Positions 2,411 through 8,395 of a DNA stretch of 64,000 nt are shown in pieces. The notes below the pieces were generated by a model. That model worked only from the letters and a program-made list of their open reading frames with translations. It was not told the origin of the DNA and made no database searches. Made by a program: the position numbers and the translations under genes. The stretch comes from Paratrimastix pyriformis (lineage: Eukaryota > Preaxostyla > Paratrimastigidae). The number at the start of each line of letters is the position of its first letter. Within the stretch, counting starts at the first letter, position 1. The DNA is taken from the NCBI GenBank assembly GCA_027972325.1, contig JAPMOS010000002.1, positions 117,501 through 181,500 on the forward strand. Direction: 5' to 3'.

Positions 2411-2685
2411 GGCGCAGCTGCCGCGGCGGGCCCCGCGCCCTGGCCACGCCGTAGCGGCCGCCCGGGGCCCACGACCCGCCCCACCCGCCCCTGAGCACCC
2501 CTCCCCAACACCCACACCCATCACCGGGCGGCCATGCCACCAGGTGGGCCCCCGGCCGGGAGGAGCCATCGTACGGGTCATTTGGCCCGGCCCCCCCCGG
2601 AGTGTAACGCATGGCGCGAAGGCGCGAGTAAGCTTTCTTCTTGAACTTGTCGCCTGCGCCCTCGCAAATACACAGCATGTTCTCT
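2411..2685 (+). mobile_element. LINE-A, 5'-truncated 3'-end copy
   Basis: This 275-bp segment is nearly identical to the last part of the full LINE-A copy (end of the ORF, the 3' UTR and the terminal cagcatgttctct). It is flanked by a perfect 8-bp target-site duplication, ctgatcac, at 2403-2410 and 2686-2693. That defines the 3' end of LINE-A exactly and shows retrotransposition with 5' truncation. It lies just 3' of FL1. Confidence 0.93.
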
Positions 2686-2850: not shown

Positions 2851-3315
2851 GGGGGGAGGAGGGGGGGGATCGTTTCAGCCATTGTACGGCGGCAGGTTGG
2901 GGGCAGGCACGACCAGCTCCGCATGGTCGGAACAGTGGGCACATGAGCAGCACCTTCTGCTCCTTGCCCAACCCGCAGCTGGGGGCAGGCCAGAGAAAGG
3001 CGGGGCTTTGCTGATGTTCAGTTTGAGGTGGGCCAGCCGGAACTGACCCACCGACAAACGCCATGGGCTACCCCCCCGAGACCGTATTCATCCTTCCCAA
3101 CAGCATGCCCATGGCCCAGCTCACCCTTGCCGATGGCCGCCCCTTTCGCCACTAAGTCGGGGACCACCGACAAGTCGGGTCCGGTGCCTGGTCCCCCCGC
3201 CCCCGCCACCACCCTGGAGCCAGCCACCCCCTCCCAGTGCGCGGCCGCCACCAGCTGCCTCCACCTCTCCCGCCAAGCACCCAACACCCCGACCGGGCCA
3301 CCCCGCCACACGAGC

Positions 3316-3560
3316 ATGGAGGGCAAGGTACCCACCCTGTACCTGCTCTCCGACCGAAGACGCCATGTGTATGTCGGAACGACTGTCAACCTCACCCACC
3401 GGGTCCTCCAGCACAACGGCCTGCTCGCCGGGGGCGCACAGCAGACCCAGGGCCACCGGTGGCACCTCCTGGCCGCGTGCTGGGGCCCCCCGCTGGAGCA
3501 GATCAGGCAGCTGGAGGACCTCCTGCACCGCCCGGACTCTGGCTGCGGCTTCCGCAAACC
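3316..3560 (+). CDS. LINE-A GIY-YIG endonuclease domain
   Basis: The translation begins MEGKVPTLYLLSD and continues HVYVGTTVNLTHRVLQHN, then GGAQQTQGHRW and a later QLEDLLHR. This follows the SLX1/UvrC-type GIY-YIG fold: tyrosine in YLL, YVG, the arginine of HRV, QHN, a GGA-x-x-T-x5-W block and a downstream glutamate. GIY-YIG enzymes nick DNA using one metal ion. Because the domain lies within the target-site duplications it belongs to the element and is not a neighbouring host SLX1 gene. The open frame runs 3028-3675, after which the coding potential moves to another frame. Confidence 0.85.
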
Positions 3561-4369
3561 CGTCACCGTCAAACAGACTGTAGGGGCCTCTGCTCCCTCC
3601 TCGCTCGCCTCAAGCTCCACCGTGCGCACCTGCATCTTGTCGCCCCGATCCGCACCGACCTCGCCACGGCCGTAACCGGCTGCACGGTGACACATGGACC
3701 CCTTCTCCACACCTTCCCACCCGAGGCCCCAACCGCCGGCCGAGGCTCCTCATCGACAACCTCAGCAGGGACCCCCCTCCGGCAGCGTCGCCCTCCCAGG
3801 CCCGAGGCAGCCGCGCTCTCCGACCAGGAGCGCACCTCGCTCCGGGCCGCTGCCACCCTGACCGACCCGGAGGCCATCCTCGAGGCAGTCATCCCCGTCC
3901 TGGCCCAGCGGACTCCGGCCAGGCGCCCCCACCCCACCAGGCCCCCGCGCCCGCAGGCACCTCGGGGCCACTGCGGGCCGCCCGCGAGCGGGTGCGCCGC
4001 CTCCAGATCCGACTGCGCGCACTGGGCCACGCGACGCGCCGTCCCCAGCACGCACCCCTCGCCTCCTTCTCCTGGCGCAAGGCCCGGGCGAACCTGGCCA
4101 CGGCCCGAGTCCGGACACGGACCGCAGCTGCCCGCACGGCCGCGCGCCAACAGTTGTCTTTGTTCTTCAAGAACAGGCGCAGATTCTTTGCCACCTTGGC
4201 CGGCGACACCCAGCGGCCGCCCTGCCCCATCTCCTGGCAACAGCTCAACGAGCACCACAGCCGTGAGGCCGCCTCTGGTGGCCCCGAGCCTCCACCCCGG
4301 CATCCCGTGGGCGACCCTGGCAGCGACAACCCCGCCCCTCACCCCGGCCGAGGCGGCGGCCCTCGAGGC

Positions 4370-5640
4370 CGACATTTCCGAGCAAGAAGTGGTCGACCAG
4401 GTCGGCAAGGCCGCACCCACACCGCGCCTGGCAGCGACGGGGCCGGCATCGACGCCCTCAAGCACCTAGTCAAGGACCCGGCCCTCCTCGGCGCGCTGGT
4501 GGCTCTCCTCCGTGCCTGCTGGCAGACCAAGTCCACCCCTGCCCGCTGGCGCGCGAGCACGGCCGTGCTACTCCTGAAGCGAGGCAAGGACCCCACGGCC
4601 GTCTCGAGTTGGCGCCACGTGGCCCTGTGCGACGTCCTGGCCAAACTGTACAGCGGCATCCTGGCGCACCGCCTCACGGACTTCCTCGGCCATCCGGGCC
4701 GACTCGCCCCTCTCAGCACGGCTTCGCGCCGGCGCTCGGCCCGTTGCTCCACGTCAGCACCCTGCTGGCCACCATGGAGAGCCGGCGGGTGGCCGGGGAC
4801 CCTCTGCGCCTACTTTTCTGGATTTGACGAATGCCTTCGGGTCGGTGGAAGCGTATGTCATCCGGAAAGGCCTGAGATTGGCCGGCATCCCCGGCCACCT
4901 GCAGGCGGCCATCCTCGAGCTCTACCAGGGGCTCTCCATGACCTGGCGGGACTGCTACGACCGGGGCCGCCCCGACGAGCCCCTCCCCCCAATCGCTCTT
5001 GAAAGGGGGTCGACGCACTGCGCCCGGTGGTGTTCCTCCCTCGCCCTTGATCCGCTCCTCCGCTGGCTCGAGCTGCCCGACCCGACCCTGGGCCCGCTGG
5101 GTGCCGGCCTGGCCGGGACCCCACCACCGCCGCCAGCTGCCAGGCCTTTGCCGACGATCTCGTGGTGACCGCCGCCAGCGACGCGGCCCTGCGGGTGCTC
5201 TGCGACAGGCTGGAGGCCTTCCTGGCCTGGGCCCGGCTGCGCCTGAATGCGAAGAAATGCGCCATCCTGGCCGCCGACAAGGGCCACGCCCAGCCGGGCT
5301 TCCTCCTGCAGCTCAAGGTCAGCCCATCCCGGCCATGGGCGACACCACCACCTACACCTACCTGGGATACACCGTGCGCTTCGACGGCTCCTGGGACGAC
5401 CACCTCCAGCGCATCACGGCCTCCTGGAACGACCGGCTGGCCCGCATCCATGCCTGCGCTCTGCCGCCCCTGGCGAAAATCGAGTGCGTCAGGGAATGGG
5501 CCTTCCCGACGCTACTCTATGGCATGACGGCGATTTGTCCATCGACGGAGCAGTGCCGCGCCCTCGAGGACGACCTGGCCCGGTACGCCTCCGCATGGCT
5601 CACGGGTCGCCCACTGAGGACCGACAAACGCTTCTTCCCG
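4370..5640 (+). CDS. LINE-A reverse transcriptase domain (frame-shifted)
   Basis: RT blocks appear in order across several frames: LEADISEQEVVDQVGKA, APGSDGAGIDALKHL, WRASTAVLLLKRGKDP with SWRHVALCDVLAKL, HGFAPALGPLL, DLTNAFGSVEAY, ALERGVDALRPVVF, AFADDLVVTA (catalytic FADD), LRLNAKKCAILAAD and TYTYLGYTVRFDGSWDDHL. These are the fingers, palm and thumb of a LINE reverse transcriptase that would prime cDNA synthesis at the nicked target. The order is unbroken; the frame changes at least five times over the domain. Confidence 0.88.
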
Positions 5641-6061
5641 GGTGTCCCGCGCGACTCTCTTCCTGGCCGGCCAAGGCCCTGGGCCTCTGAGGATCGAGGC
5701 CTCCCTGCGCCAAGCCCACCTCTGCCTGATCGCCCGGCTCCTCACCCCGCCCCCCAACGGCCAGTTCATCGCCCAGTGGGAGCGCCCCAACGCCATGGCC
5801 CGGGCCCTGGCGGCCGCCGCCCGACCCACGATATCCCCGCAACCCGCCCGCCGCCGCCCCCCACCAAAGGGGCTCGTGGCCCCCACCCCCACGCAGCCTC
5901 TGGCAGTGGCTGGCCGAGGCGCAGACACGCCACTCGTTCACTCTGGCGCGGGGGCCGGGGCGGGTGGCTGCTGACCAGCCACCTGATCCGGGGTGGCCGA
6001 CTGTTCCCCGCTGCCGGGGCAGTGACCCCGAGCCCGCGCGCCGCAAGGAGCTGCGCCTGAT

Positions 6062-6512
6062 GAAAGTTGTCGATGTCCTCCGCGCCATGCCCGCCGATGC
6101 CATCCAGGTCTACACCGACGGGTCCTTCGAGTGCGGCCCTGAGGGCCAGCTCCGCGGGGCGCCGCCGCGGTCCTGATCCACCCCGACGGCCGCGCACTGT
6201 CGTTGCGCCGCACCCTCCAGTGGCCCACAAGCAACGCCCAGGCCGAGATCGAGGCCATCCGGCTGGCCATCGACCTCCTCGGCCGGGAGCGGGTCGGCCG
6301 AGACCGGTGCGTGCTGCTGCTGTCGGACAGCGAGTACGCCCTCGGTGCCCTGTGCCGCGCCACCTGCCTGACCCAGTCGCAGCAGGAGGTCCTCCGACTC
6401 CGGGACGAGCTGGTCTCCCGGTGGCCGCGCCTCCTCTGCCATCACGTGCCCTCCCACGTGGACGCGGTGGCCCCCGGCTGCCCCCACCTGTGGGGCAATT
6501 TGCAGGCCGACC
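6062..6512 (+). CDS. LINE-A RNase H domain
   Basis: The sequence encodes IQVYTDGSFECGPEGQL, then AQAEIEAIRLAIDLL, LLLSDSEYALGAL and CHHVPSHVDAVAPG. These are the four RNase H blocks: D of TDGS, E of the AEIEAI helix, D of SDSEYAL and the H-x-x-S-H block with its downstream segment. RNase H degrades the RNA strand of the cDNA hybrid. The frame changes once near 6170, between the first and second blocks. Confidence 0.85.
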
Positions 6513-6934
6513 GGCGAGGCCGCGGCAGCCCCGCCCCCCACCGACAAGGCCGGCCCGCCACCCCCCATCCAACAGGGCTTGGCCTGCCCGCCGGAGATGC
6601 CCTTCCGCCCCTCGGGCCCCAAGGACGCCCGTTGCCGTACCCCACCCGACCCTTCACGCTCGCGGTGGCCCGGGGATTCTGCCAGGCCCTCCAGTGCGAG
6701 GAGGAGGCCCGCGGCTGGGCCCCCCGGCGCAGCCGATTCTCCTCGGGGGTCACCCTGGACGGCCTCGAGCAAAGCTGGCCGCGCCCGCCTGGCGCCAGCA
6801 GGCCGCCCCCGACTGGAAGGTGCGCCGGCTCGTCTGGCTGCTGTTCGGCACCTTCCCCACCCTGCAAACCATTCGGTGCCGATACGCGCGGAAGGCCTCA
6901 GCATCTGCCGGCGACGCCCCCCCGGTGGGGGTCA

Positions 6935-7596
6935 CCTGCCCACTCTGCCACGGCGGCCCCGAGACCATGTCCCACCTGCTGTCCGGCTGCGGCAGGTACC
7001 ACGACTTCTACACGGCCCGCCACGACCGTGTGGTCCGCCGACTCTGGGCCTGGTTCGGCGGGCAACGCGACTGGGTCACGCGGCATTATATGGGCGTGTC
7101 GGCAACCAACTGTGCGCCCGCCTTCCCACCCACCCTGCTGGCCAAGCTCCCCGCCGCCCTCCGCGACGTGCACCCCGACCTGGTGTTGCAGTCCCGTGGC
7201 TCTGACGGCACCTGGTGGCTGCTCGACGTGGCCATCACTGGCCAGACCCACGACTGGCCGGCGCGGGCGGCGGCCAAGGCGGCCCACTACGTCGCCCTCT
7301 GCCAGGCCGTCACGGAGGCCACCGGGCAGCCCTGCCGCGCGGTGCCGGTGATCTTGTCGGCCCGAGGGACCGTGCCCCGGGCCACATGCCAGGCCCTGTC
7401 GCGGCTGACACCGGCCGACCCCCCTGCCGCGCGAACCGACCTCCAGCGGGCCCTCTCCTCCGTCTCGACCCTTCTGGTTCGGGACGCCCTCGCGCTCATG
7501 ACCATGCGCAACGGCGCAGCTGCCGCGGCGGGCCCCGCGCCCTGGCCACGCCGTAGCGGCCGCCCAGGGCCCACGACCCGCCCCACCCGCCCCTGA
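6935..7596 (+). CDS. LINE-A CCHC finger and restriction-like endonuclease
   Basis: CPLCHGGPETMSHLLSGC is a C-x2-C-x9-H-x4-C finger, the kind found between RT and endonuclease in R2/NeSL-type LINEs. It is followed by HPDLVLQSRG and WWLLDVAITGQ, then AAKAAHYVALC and VPVILSARGTVPRATC. The PD...LDVAI...K-x-x-HY layout with the terminal hydrophobic strand is the PD-(D/E)xK restriction-like endonuclease of those LINEs. This stretch is open to the stop at 7594-7596 and the protein is identical in the copy at 41822-42745. Confidence 0.87.
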
Positions 7597-8049
7597 GCAC
7601 CCCTCCCCAACACCCACACCCATCACCGGGCGGCCATGCCACCAGGTGGGCCCCCGGCCGGGAGGAGCCATCGTACGGGTCATTTGGCCCGGCCCCCCCC
7701 GGAGTGTAACGCATGGCGCGAAGGCGCGAGTAACCTTTCTTCTTGAACTTGTCGCCTGCGCCCTCGCAAATACACAGCATGTTCTCTGACCCAGGGCGGC
7801 AGCCACCTGGGGCCATGCCTCCGGCGCCACTACAGCCGGCCGAACCACAACGAGTGCCACCTCGGAGGAGGCGAACGAGAAAGTCTCAAAAGAGAAGAGC
7901 TCACAAAAGGTTAACTCCCATTTCTCAGTGAGGCGAATTTGACTTTCATGAAGTGCTCGACTCACACAAATTCTCACTTTTCGAAAGAACTCGGAGATGA
8001 CAAAATGCGTTCTCGATTCGGAGAGTTGACCCCAAAAAAAGATGTCCGT

Positions 8050-8395
8050 GTTCAGGCGGTAGGCGGTGGTGATACGGGAACTGAGATCGGGGCGGCGGTC
8101 TGCGGAGGGGCGCTCTGACGGGTTGACGCCTCAGTCCCGTCAGGGTGCGCGCGGCTGGTTGCCGACGTGCCGCGTGACCCAGTCGGATTGGCCGCGGAAC
8201 CACGCCAAAAGTCAGCGAAGACACAGCATTCTCTCAGCGGACCACCCGGTGTGTCCGAGTCGTGGTAACTGCCGCAGCCCGACAGCAGGTGGGACATGGT
8301 CTCTGGGCCGTGGCAGAGTCATGAGGTCATTTGCCCCCCCCCCCCCCCCCCCCCCCCGGTGTAACGCATGGTGCGAAGGCGCAATTAATCTAATC
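8050..8395 (-). mobile_element. Decayed LINE-A relative
   Basis: The minus strand from 8297 encodes MSHLLSGCGSYHD, matching the LINE-A finger region, followed by diverged sequence to about 8050. Immediately beyond on the plus strand is a poly-C run (about 8335-8357) and ggtgtaacgcatggtgcgaag, which matches the LINE-A tail in plus orientation. The two halves point in opposite directions, so this is a scrambled or composite remnant. Confidence 0.6.

Follow-up and report, generated by a model that had tools for sequence, protein, structure and literature searches.

Comparison among the copies of a high-copy LINE in its host, the free-living microbe Paratrimastix pyriformis, supports the placement of an SLX1-type GIY-YIG nuclease domain and a restriction-like endonuclease (RLE) within one LINE protein. 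The sequence-only reading had listed a GIY-YIG domain, a reverse transcriptase (RT), RNase H, a CCHC finger and an RLE, and all five were found, in that order, in the element that lies in the window (the whole stretch of 64,000 nucleotides analysed; Table 1). Because the frame shifts several times within the window copy, the single-protein architecture rests on other copies. Unbroken frames with all five domains were found in C179 (1519 amino acids, with no methionine ahead of the GIY-YIG domain) and C484 (1744 amino acids), which are 33% identical. The GIY-YIG and RT matches, compared by hand, share strand and open-frame length at 13 loci (C476, C179, C172, C132, C307, C455, C484, C222, C266, C1, C311, C458, and C19), and the frames were read at six of these (C476, C179, C172, C484, C1, and C458). 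Broken copies make up most of those seen, and the majority of the matched loci have differing GIY-YIG and RT frames. The assembly is nanopore-based and contains many homopolymer indels, and the frame breaks of the window copy look like nanopore errors for the most part.

Table 1. Positions of the LINE copy, its domains and its flanking duplications in the window.
Feature	Position	Strand	Remark
Second copy of the window LINE, 3' end only	2411..2685	+	Duplication CTGATCAC at 2403-2410 and 2686-2693
Target-site duplication CTGACCCA, left	3043..3050	.	Identical to 7786-7793
GIY-YIG/RLE LINE copy, 5'-truncated	3051..7785	+	First 3590 nt of C212 absent
SLX1-type GIY-YIG nuclease domain	3316..3585	+	Single open frame in window copy
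LINE-type reverse transcriptase	4371..5523	+	Pfam RVT_1; three frames in window copy
RT motifs	NAFGSV within 4818-4847; FADDLVV 5147-5167; YLGYTVRFDG 5359-5388	+	
RNase H domain	6102..6511	+	Two frames in window copy; YTDGS, AEIEAI, SDSEYAL, HVPSH, GNLQAD
CCHC zinc finger C-x2-C-x8-H-x4-C, upstream of RLE	6937..6990	+	Three of four ligands invariant in nine rows
Restriction-like (PD-(D/E)xK) endonuclease region	6991..7596	+	Stop 7594-7596 closes frame
RLE motifs	HPD 7171-7179; D in LLDVAIT 7219-7239; K in 7267-7290	+	
3' untranslated region and 3' end	7597..7785	+	(CT)n tail variable in other copies
Target-site duplication CTGACCCA, right	7786..7793	.	Identical to 3043-3050

The window copy and its insertion site

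The element in the window is a single copy of this LINE, shortened at its 5' end. The boundaries had been called solid from the sequence alone, and as the limits of this insertion they stand, while as the limits of the family they do not: the window copy is 3590 nt shorter at the 5' end than the C212 copy of 8301 nt, a truncation that had been overlooked together with ~3.6 kb more of element sequence. Sequence extends further upstream in 22 of the 23 copies that match the entire 650-nt 5' query. The 6-bp target duplication reported earlier is a fair estimate, since 8 bp are seen and the CT among them is indistinguishable from the CT tail of the element. The empty site had been described as reading in frame, and indeed, once position 3050 is linked to 7794, the minus strand again carries an open frame, one matching the LRR-like paralogue nearby.

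The 3' end of the LINE was found again in 40 scored copies (from 649 candidates), among them the small second copy in the window (L002), where positions 2409-2685 are 99% identical to 7511-7787. The element would have spread by target-primed reverse transcription, which is supported by marks of target priming, namely ragged 5' truncation, a variable CT tail at the 3' end, and some target duplications. Such duplications were visible by eye in two of the 17 copies with the left junction seen (L002 and L010); the cases of L011 and L020 are uncertain, inspection of the full-length C212 copy revealed none, and internal rearrangements may account for some of the left junctions. The window copy differs from 20 of the 22 other whole-length copies (L038 and L051 were left out) by 4-39 substitutions per ~2.1 kb; the copies are thus young, and the system may still be active. 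None of the 24 pattern matches in viral contigs was a relative of the element, and the search for relatives in plasmids gave 0 matches. A Cys-box and a HETA-box are suggested by eye in the first 3.6 kb. A ubiquitin-specific protease, which the two boxes resemble, was considered for this region but was rejected, as neither Pfam nor the PDB (E up to 10) gave such a match.

The five domains and the GIY-YIG junction

The RT is of LINE type by its matches. The RVT_1 score, 28.8 bits in the window copy (cut-off 29.6), was 47.2 in C476, 74.2 in C179, and 96.4 in C484, and the RT matched R2 chains (1.2e-16 for C476, 1.6e-27 for C179) and L1 (6e-11 and 6.2e-13), with no match to telomerase chains (E up to 0.1 and 0.001). 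For RNase H (PF00075, cut-off 25.8), the window copy scored 23.8 bits, C484 25.6, and C441 40.6. A C-terminal CCHC finger and PD-(D/E)xK endonuclease are predicted in the element from a finger-plus-RLE HMM of eight other LINEs (no Paratrimastix rows, P0008 left out), which scored the window at 56.0, P0011 at 54.9, and P0012 at 21.9 bits and matched 0 of 150 shuffles and 0 of 5 other LINE proteins (P0018-P0022). For the RLE, AlphaFold pLDDT values were 84-97 (residues 61-200).

The GIY-YIG domain scored above the Pfam cut-off (PF01541, 22.6 bits) in C484 (42.8), C1 (37.0), C458 (32.7), and C476 (28.4) and below it in C179 (21.4) and the window copy (20.8). Its resemblance to SLX1, noted earlier from the letters, was borne out by a profile search of the PDB, which matched SLX1 at 2.5e-18; seven of the eight matches were SLX1 or UPF0213, the eighth being unrelated (E 9.9), which puts the sequence closer to SLX1 than to UvrC or homing nucleases. 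Y9, R29, QHNG, and E67 are invariant in alignment A2. The dN/dS of the domain was 0.125 (bootstrap 0.05-0.24) for the window copy vs C476 and 0.107 (0.00-0.29) for C179 vs C172, with values of at least 1 in 0 of 300 bootstraps for each pair, which indicates purifying selection between subfamilies and close copies. Between distant families (window or C476 vs C179 or C172) it was 0.25-0.38, next to 0.30 for RT, 0.24 for RNase H, and 0.24 for RLE, so that at this distance the constraint on the GIY-YIG domain does not exceed that on the other domains.

The GIY-YIG part could in principle be a host gene fragment, a neighbouring repeat or an assembly chimera joined to the LINE by chance. In favour of this stand the homopolymer indels of the nanopore-based assembly, copy C207, which ends shortly after the GIY-YIG domain, and the identity between subfamilies, which drops through the end of the domain (from 93-99% to 89, 81, and 77%) and suggests a partly separate history for that part. 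The junction is, however, the same at 27 of the 30 fetched loci, where the alignment continues unbroken from the GIY-YIG part into the RT; of the remaining three, L056 begins at 371 and extends into the RT, L038 ends at 777, and L060 is a fragment of 158 nt. A query taken from upstream of the domain gave 24 matches and no copy that skips the domain: 22 lie directly next to a GIY-YIG copy, and the remaining two, a match at a contig edge and a 319-nt piece, stop before the junction. Among the 40 RT copies scored (from 84 candidates), the GIY-YIG part is present in 26, truncated in 5, and absent from 9; none of these nine was matched by the upstream query, which is what 5' truncation would produce. 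Neither of two arrangements that the sequence-only reading had named as speaking against it was therefore seen: the GIY-YIG part was not met as a separate repeat among the 30 fetched loci, and full-length copies lacking it are not among the upstream matches. These junctions, the upstream query, and the unbroken frames of two divergent families led us to reject a separate repeat or assembly chimera, and with the domain under selection we give a chance join almost no credence.

A proposed integration cycle with two nucleases

To our knowledge, second-strand cleavage in LINEs is still poorly settled. We lean towards reading the element as an RLE-type LINE carrying an SLX1-type GIY-YIG domain, in which the RLE makes the first nick and the GIY-YIG nuclease cuts a branched intermediate. 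The RLE would nick the first strand, and the RT would prime from this nick at the CU-repeat 3' end of the element RNA. RNase H would then clear the RNA, and the GIY-YIG nuclease would cut the branched DNA intermediate, a substrate like that of cellular SLX1, thereby freeing the second strand. Two nickases for the two strand cleavages, as proposed from the sequence alone, are plausible. With two unrelated nucleases in one protein, one belonging to a family of structure-specific repair nucleases, the second-strand question becomes testable for each active site.

The roles may instead be reversed: the GIY-YIG nuclease would nick the target for priming, which has been proposed for Penelope-like elements, and the RLE would cut the second strand or mainly bind DNA. 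The stronger constraint on GIY-YIG between close copies (0.125 vs 0.279 for RLE) and the RLE of C484, which has E in place of the D of the others, would fit this arrangement. We nevertheless consider it unlikely, as three Paratrimastix rows and six other LINEs retain the PD, D/E, and K residues of the RLE, and across the distant families this endonuclease is under no weaker constraint than GIY-YIG. Moreover, finger and RLE are present, with no GIY-YIG match, in P0016 and P0017, which are close relatives by RT, so that of the two nicking domains the RLE probably came first.

We also doubt, somewhat more strongly, that the GIY-YIG nuclease works outside integration, on repair or replication structures of the host. 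SLX1 is described in the available part of one source as a structure-specific nuclease acting on stalled-fork and repair structures (PMC1564403), and the domain of the element is of SLX1 type. Its place and frame with RT and RLE are, however, constant in families that are 33% identical, an arrangement in keeping with a function in the cycle of the element itself. No SLX1 gene of the host was identified in the genome search; SLX1_C gave 0 matches in the host, and the control was likewise silent (0 of 14 genomes). Compared with cellular SLX1, the domain shares the GIY-YIG core with HNG, GGA, T, and W motifs but is fused to an RT, and no RING finger was seen.

Comparison with known elements

As a rule of thumb, GIY-YIG marks Penelope-like elements and RLE or APE marks LINEs, and the element described here breaks this rule. 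In the literature searched we found no described element with the GIY-YIG and RLE pair, in agreement with the earlier statement that no family with both was known. Penelope-like elements of the Naiad/Chlamys groups carry GIY-YIG at the N terminus. In the available part of one source, Penelope-like elements have GIY-YIG and a telomerase-like RT in one ORF (PMC11167929), and the retroelements with GIY-YIG in the parts of the literature available to us are Penelope-like. A Penelope-like element that gained an RLE is nonetheless very improbable: the combination of GIY-YIG and RT is shared, but here the GIY-YIG is of SLX1 type, the RT matches R2 and L1 with no telomerase chain, and RNase H and RLE are present. 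On the same grounds, membership among Penelope-like elements was rejected, and the shift in lineage between the two element classes that the sequence-only reading had raised is not upheld. At gathering score, no Rfam family (hammerhead included) matched the 10036 bases searched at three loci, a sample that spans much, though only part, of the element.

The nearest outside RT matches among the best 8000 candidates by shared words, which the protein searches scored, were P0016 and P0017, whose finger and RLE are C-terminal. We take these, with their NAFGS motif, to be members of the NeSL/Utopia/R2-type group. In the RT tree, which held no Penelope, telomerase or Dualen rows, the neighbours of the element were NeSL-like rows with weak support (82/84); C484 and C458 are 97% identical, so the five element rows represent four families. 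Topology tests gave a p-AU of 0.046 for placement with R2, while placement with two APE/RNase H rows (0.16) or all six non-RLE rows (0.26) was not rejected.

With LINEs of the NeSL/Utopia/R2 type, the element shares a LINE RT, a CCHC finger and a C-terminal RLE. Utopia is described, in the available part of the source, with N-terminal zinc fingers, an Ulp1-like protease in one nematode family, and RNase H before the RT in oomycetes (PMC4640811). GIY-YIG is unmentioned for Utopia in that part (PMC4640811), whereas here it stands before the RT, with RNase H placed after the RT and ahead of the RLE.

APE-bearing matches (P0018-P0020) raised a possible link to Dualen/RandI. The second nuclease of Dualen/RandI is of APE type, and these elements carry a cysteine protease, for which the element described here offers the Cys-box and HETA-box seen by eye upstream, with no Pfam or PDB support. 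P0011 and P0012 gave no match to Exo_endo_phos (APE type; E up to 1), and the element is set apart from Dualen/RandI by GIY-YIG as its second nuclease. Both are dual-endonuclease LINEs with an RLE, and RNase H, reported for Dualen/RandI in the available part of the source (PMC4640811), accompanies the RLE in one element as it does here. A LINE lineage could have captured a cellular junction nuclease for second-strand cleavage. In this scenario, which we put forward tentatively, dual-endonuclease LINEs would have arisen a second time, GIY-YIG taking the place of Dualen's APE.

Boundaries, copies and the 5' end

The assembly that holds the window comprises 56.06 Mb in 495 contigs; the published P. 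pyriformis assembly is described as 56.6 Mb with 60.94% GC in 633 scaffolds, from nanopore and Illumina data, in a paper whose main text contains neither "transpos" nor "reverse transcriptase" (PMC10703272). The window copy of the element (3051-7785) is flanked on both sides by CTGACCCA (3043-3050 and 7786-7793), and an LRR-like gene reads on through the reconstructed empty site. The element's 3' end is found again in 40 scored copies, from 649 first-look candidates. Searching with the 5' part of the window copy (3051-3700) retrieved 23 copies that align along the entire query at 96-100%, one of them the window's own, and five members of a second subfamily that align at 78-82% starting at query position 144 or 153.

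Sequence upstream of 3051 is common to 22 of the 23 whole-length copies, with ragged starts, and 14 of those copies (query copy L035 counted) extend to 34 or fewer bases from the fetched edge. Copies on contigs C212 and C207 begin at a common 5' end, which starts with an ATG, and since the C212 copy is 8301 nt long, the window copy lacks 3590 nt. The 3.6 kb absent from the window copy includes a repeat rich in CAG (C212 copy, 725-1228) and coding-looking sequence for which Pfam and PDB searches matched no family. By eye, the N-terminus of the C212 copy is SAP-like, without Pfam support. The full-length copy L061 (C212:127014 onward) begins at the first base of the ATG and, as assembled, has no 5' UTR. 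Another copy (L041, on C6) seems to be shorter than C212 by about 1 kb in the 5' region, either through an internal deletion or, possibly, because an intron was spliced out.

The GIY-YIG domain within one predicted protein

The sequence-only reading placed the GIY-YIG domain inside the LINE and not in a separate repeat, and a single alignment does run from GIY-YIG into RT in 27 of the 30 fetched GIY-region loci. These loci were themselves retrieved by the GIY-YIG part; the independent query was 1201 nt from upstream of it. Among its 24 matches, 22 lie next to a GIY-YIG copy and the other two end before the junction; none skips the domain, so full-length copies without GIY-YIG, the other outcome which that reading had set against itself, did not appear. 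The GIY-YIG part was present in 26, truncated in five and absent in nine of the 40 scored RT copies (from 84 candidates). None of these nine was found among the 24 upstream-query matches, which fits 5' truncation and not an alternative form.

A seven-row GIY-YIG profile matched SLX1 chains in PDB (2.5e-18 to 1.9e-12) and UPF0213 chains too; UvrC and I-TevI chains gave no match up to E 10. The AlphaFold model of this domain has a beta-beta-alpha-beta-alpha order (mean pLDDT 73), and that of the RLE has a mean pLDDT of 77.2, with 84-97 across residues 61-200. An HMM built from the finger-plus-RLE regions of eight other LINEs scored the window copy at 56.0, P0011 at 54.9 and P0012 at 21.9 bits (the latter two being the C179 and C484 frame proteins), and scored none of 150 shuffles and none of five other LINE proteins. 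Separately, an AT-rich GIY-YIG ORF on C410 (L075, 150800-152300; 254 aa, 41.3 bits) does not look like the GIY-YIG type of the LINE; some 30 further places score near it, and L075 alone was read.

The domains of the window copy are spread over different frames. Comparison of about 2.1 kb with 20 other copies gave 330 indel events (214 at homopolymers) and 265 substitutions. This looks like nanopore error in a repeat of young age, with true decay possible for individual copies. The predicted one-protein architecture is settled by the frames of other copies, not by the window copy. Strand and frame length agree between the GIY-YIG and RT matches at 13 loci (hand comparison; frames were actually read at six of the 13), and frames differ at the remaining loci. 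The C172 frame slips inside the RT and then enters a stretch reading N.

Frames of element copies and their Pfam scores in bits (cut-offs: RVT_1 29.6, GIY-YIG 22.6, RNase_H 25.8)
Frame	Length (aa)	Domains	RVT_1	GIY-YIG	RNase_H
C476	983	GIY-YIG + RT			
C441	583	RNase H + CCHC + RLE			
C179 (P0011)	1519	all five	74.2	21.4 (below cut-off)	27.4
C484 (P0012)	1744	all five	96.4	42.8	25.6 (below cut-off)
C1			80.5	37.0	
C458			94.3	32.7	31.4 (next frame)

Kinship and selection

An RT tree of 23 rows, none of them from Dualen, Penelope or telomerase, unites the five Paratrimastix rows (two near-identical) in a single clade (100/99). This clade falls on the RLE side of a branch supported at 94/91, adjoined by rows with the NAFGS motif (82/84). 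For rows lacking a name, the clade names are provisional. Constraining the Paratrimastix rows with R2 gave a p-AU of 0.046. The apparent RLE-side placement is not firm because p-AU was 0.16 for a grouping with two APE/RNase H rows and 0.26 with all six non-RLE-group rows. Finger and RLE are present in both of the nearest RT hits from outside (30% and 29% identical), and neither has a GIY-YIG match.

The window copy and C476 are 93-99% identical from about position 600 on (88% in a single block of 150 nt close to the 3' end), and going backwards through GIY-YIG identity falls to 89, 81, 77 and 68%. The N-terminal part may have been exchanged between elements; alternatively, gene conversion of the 3' part would account for the same drop.

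For GIY-YIG, dN/dS was 0.125 (window vs C476) and 0.107 (C179 vs C172), with 0 of 300 bootstraps at or above 1 in each; RLE between the two subfamilies (window vs C476) gave 0.279 at low dS. Comparing the window copy or C476 with C179 or C172 gave 0.25-0.38 for GIY-YIG, 0.30 for RT, 0.24 for RNase H and 0.24 for RLE. Pairs with C484 (0.37-0.81) are near saturation and hence little informative. Judged from these ratios, GIY-YIG is retained under constraint about equal to that on the other domains.

Insertion and comparison with known elements

The element has a high copy number, with ragged 5' truncation, a CT tail of varying length, and a target duplication at the window copy and two other copies. 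The RLE would make the first nick, priming would occur at the CU-rich 3' end of the element RNA, RNase H would clear the RNA, and the SLX1-type GIY-YIG, by its predicted activity, would cut the branched intermediate. SLX1 is described as nicking at stalled-fork junctions (PMC1564403).

Among the 30 3' junctions of L001-L030, 16 (counted by eye) have G as the first flanking base after the (CT)n tail, which would fit a preference for CTG targets. Elsewhere in the window, 8147-8310 resembles 6954-7117 in inverted orientation and adjoins a plus-strand piece resembling the 3' end (8325-8391); 8147-8391 is a LINE relic, laid out as 5' inversion (twin priming) or nested insertion would leave it. Two copies (L023 on C103, L028 on C8) have the same internal junction and an identical 25-nt left flank there, pointing to a transposing deletion derivative or segmental duplication.

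No description of GIY-YIG and RLE in one element was found in the literature searched, with Repbase and most subscription journals outside its scope, and priority for the pairing is not assured. In that literature, GIY-YIG carriers are the Penelope-like elements, rotifer Terminons have GIY-YIG as accessory ORFs, R2-like LINEs carry an RLE, and Dualen combines RLE with APE. The element described here is a LINE of the RLE kind whose second nuclease is of SLX1 type.
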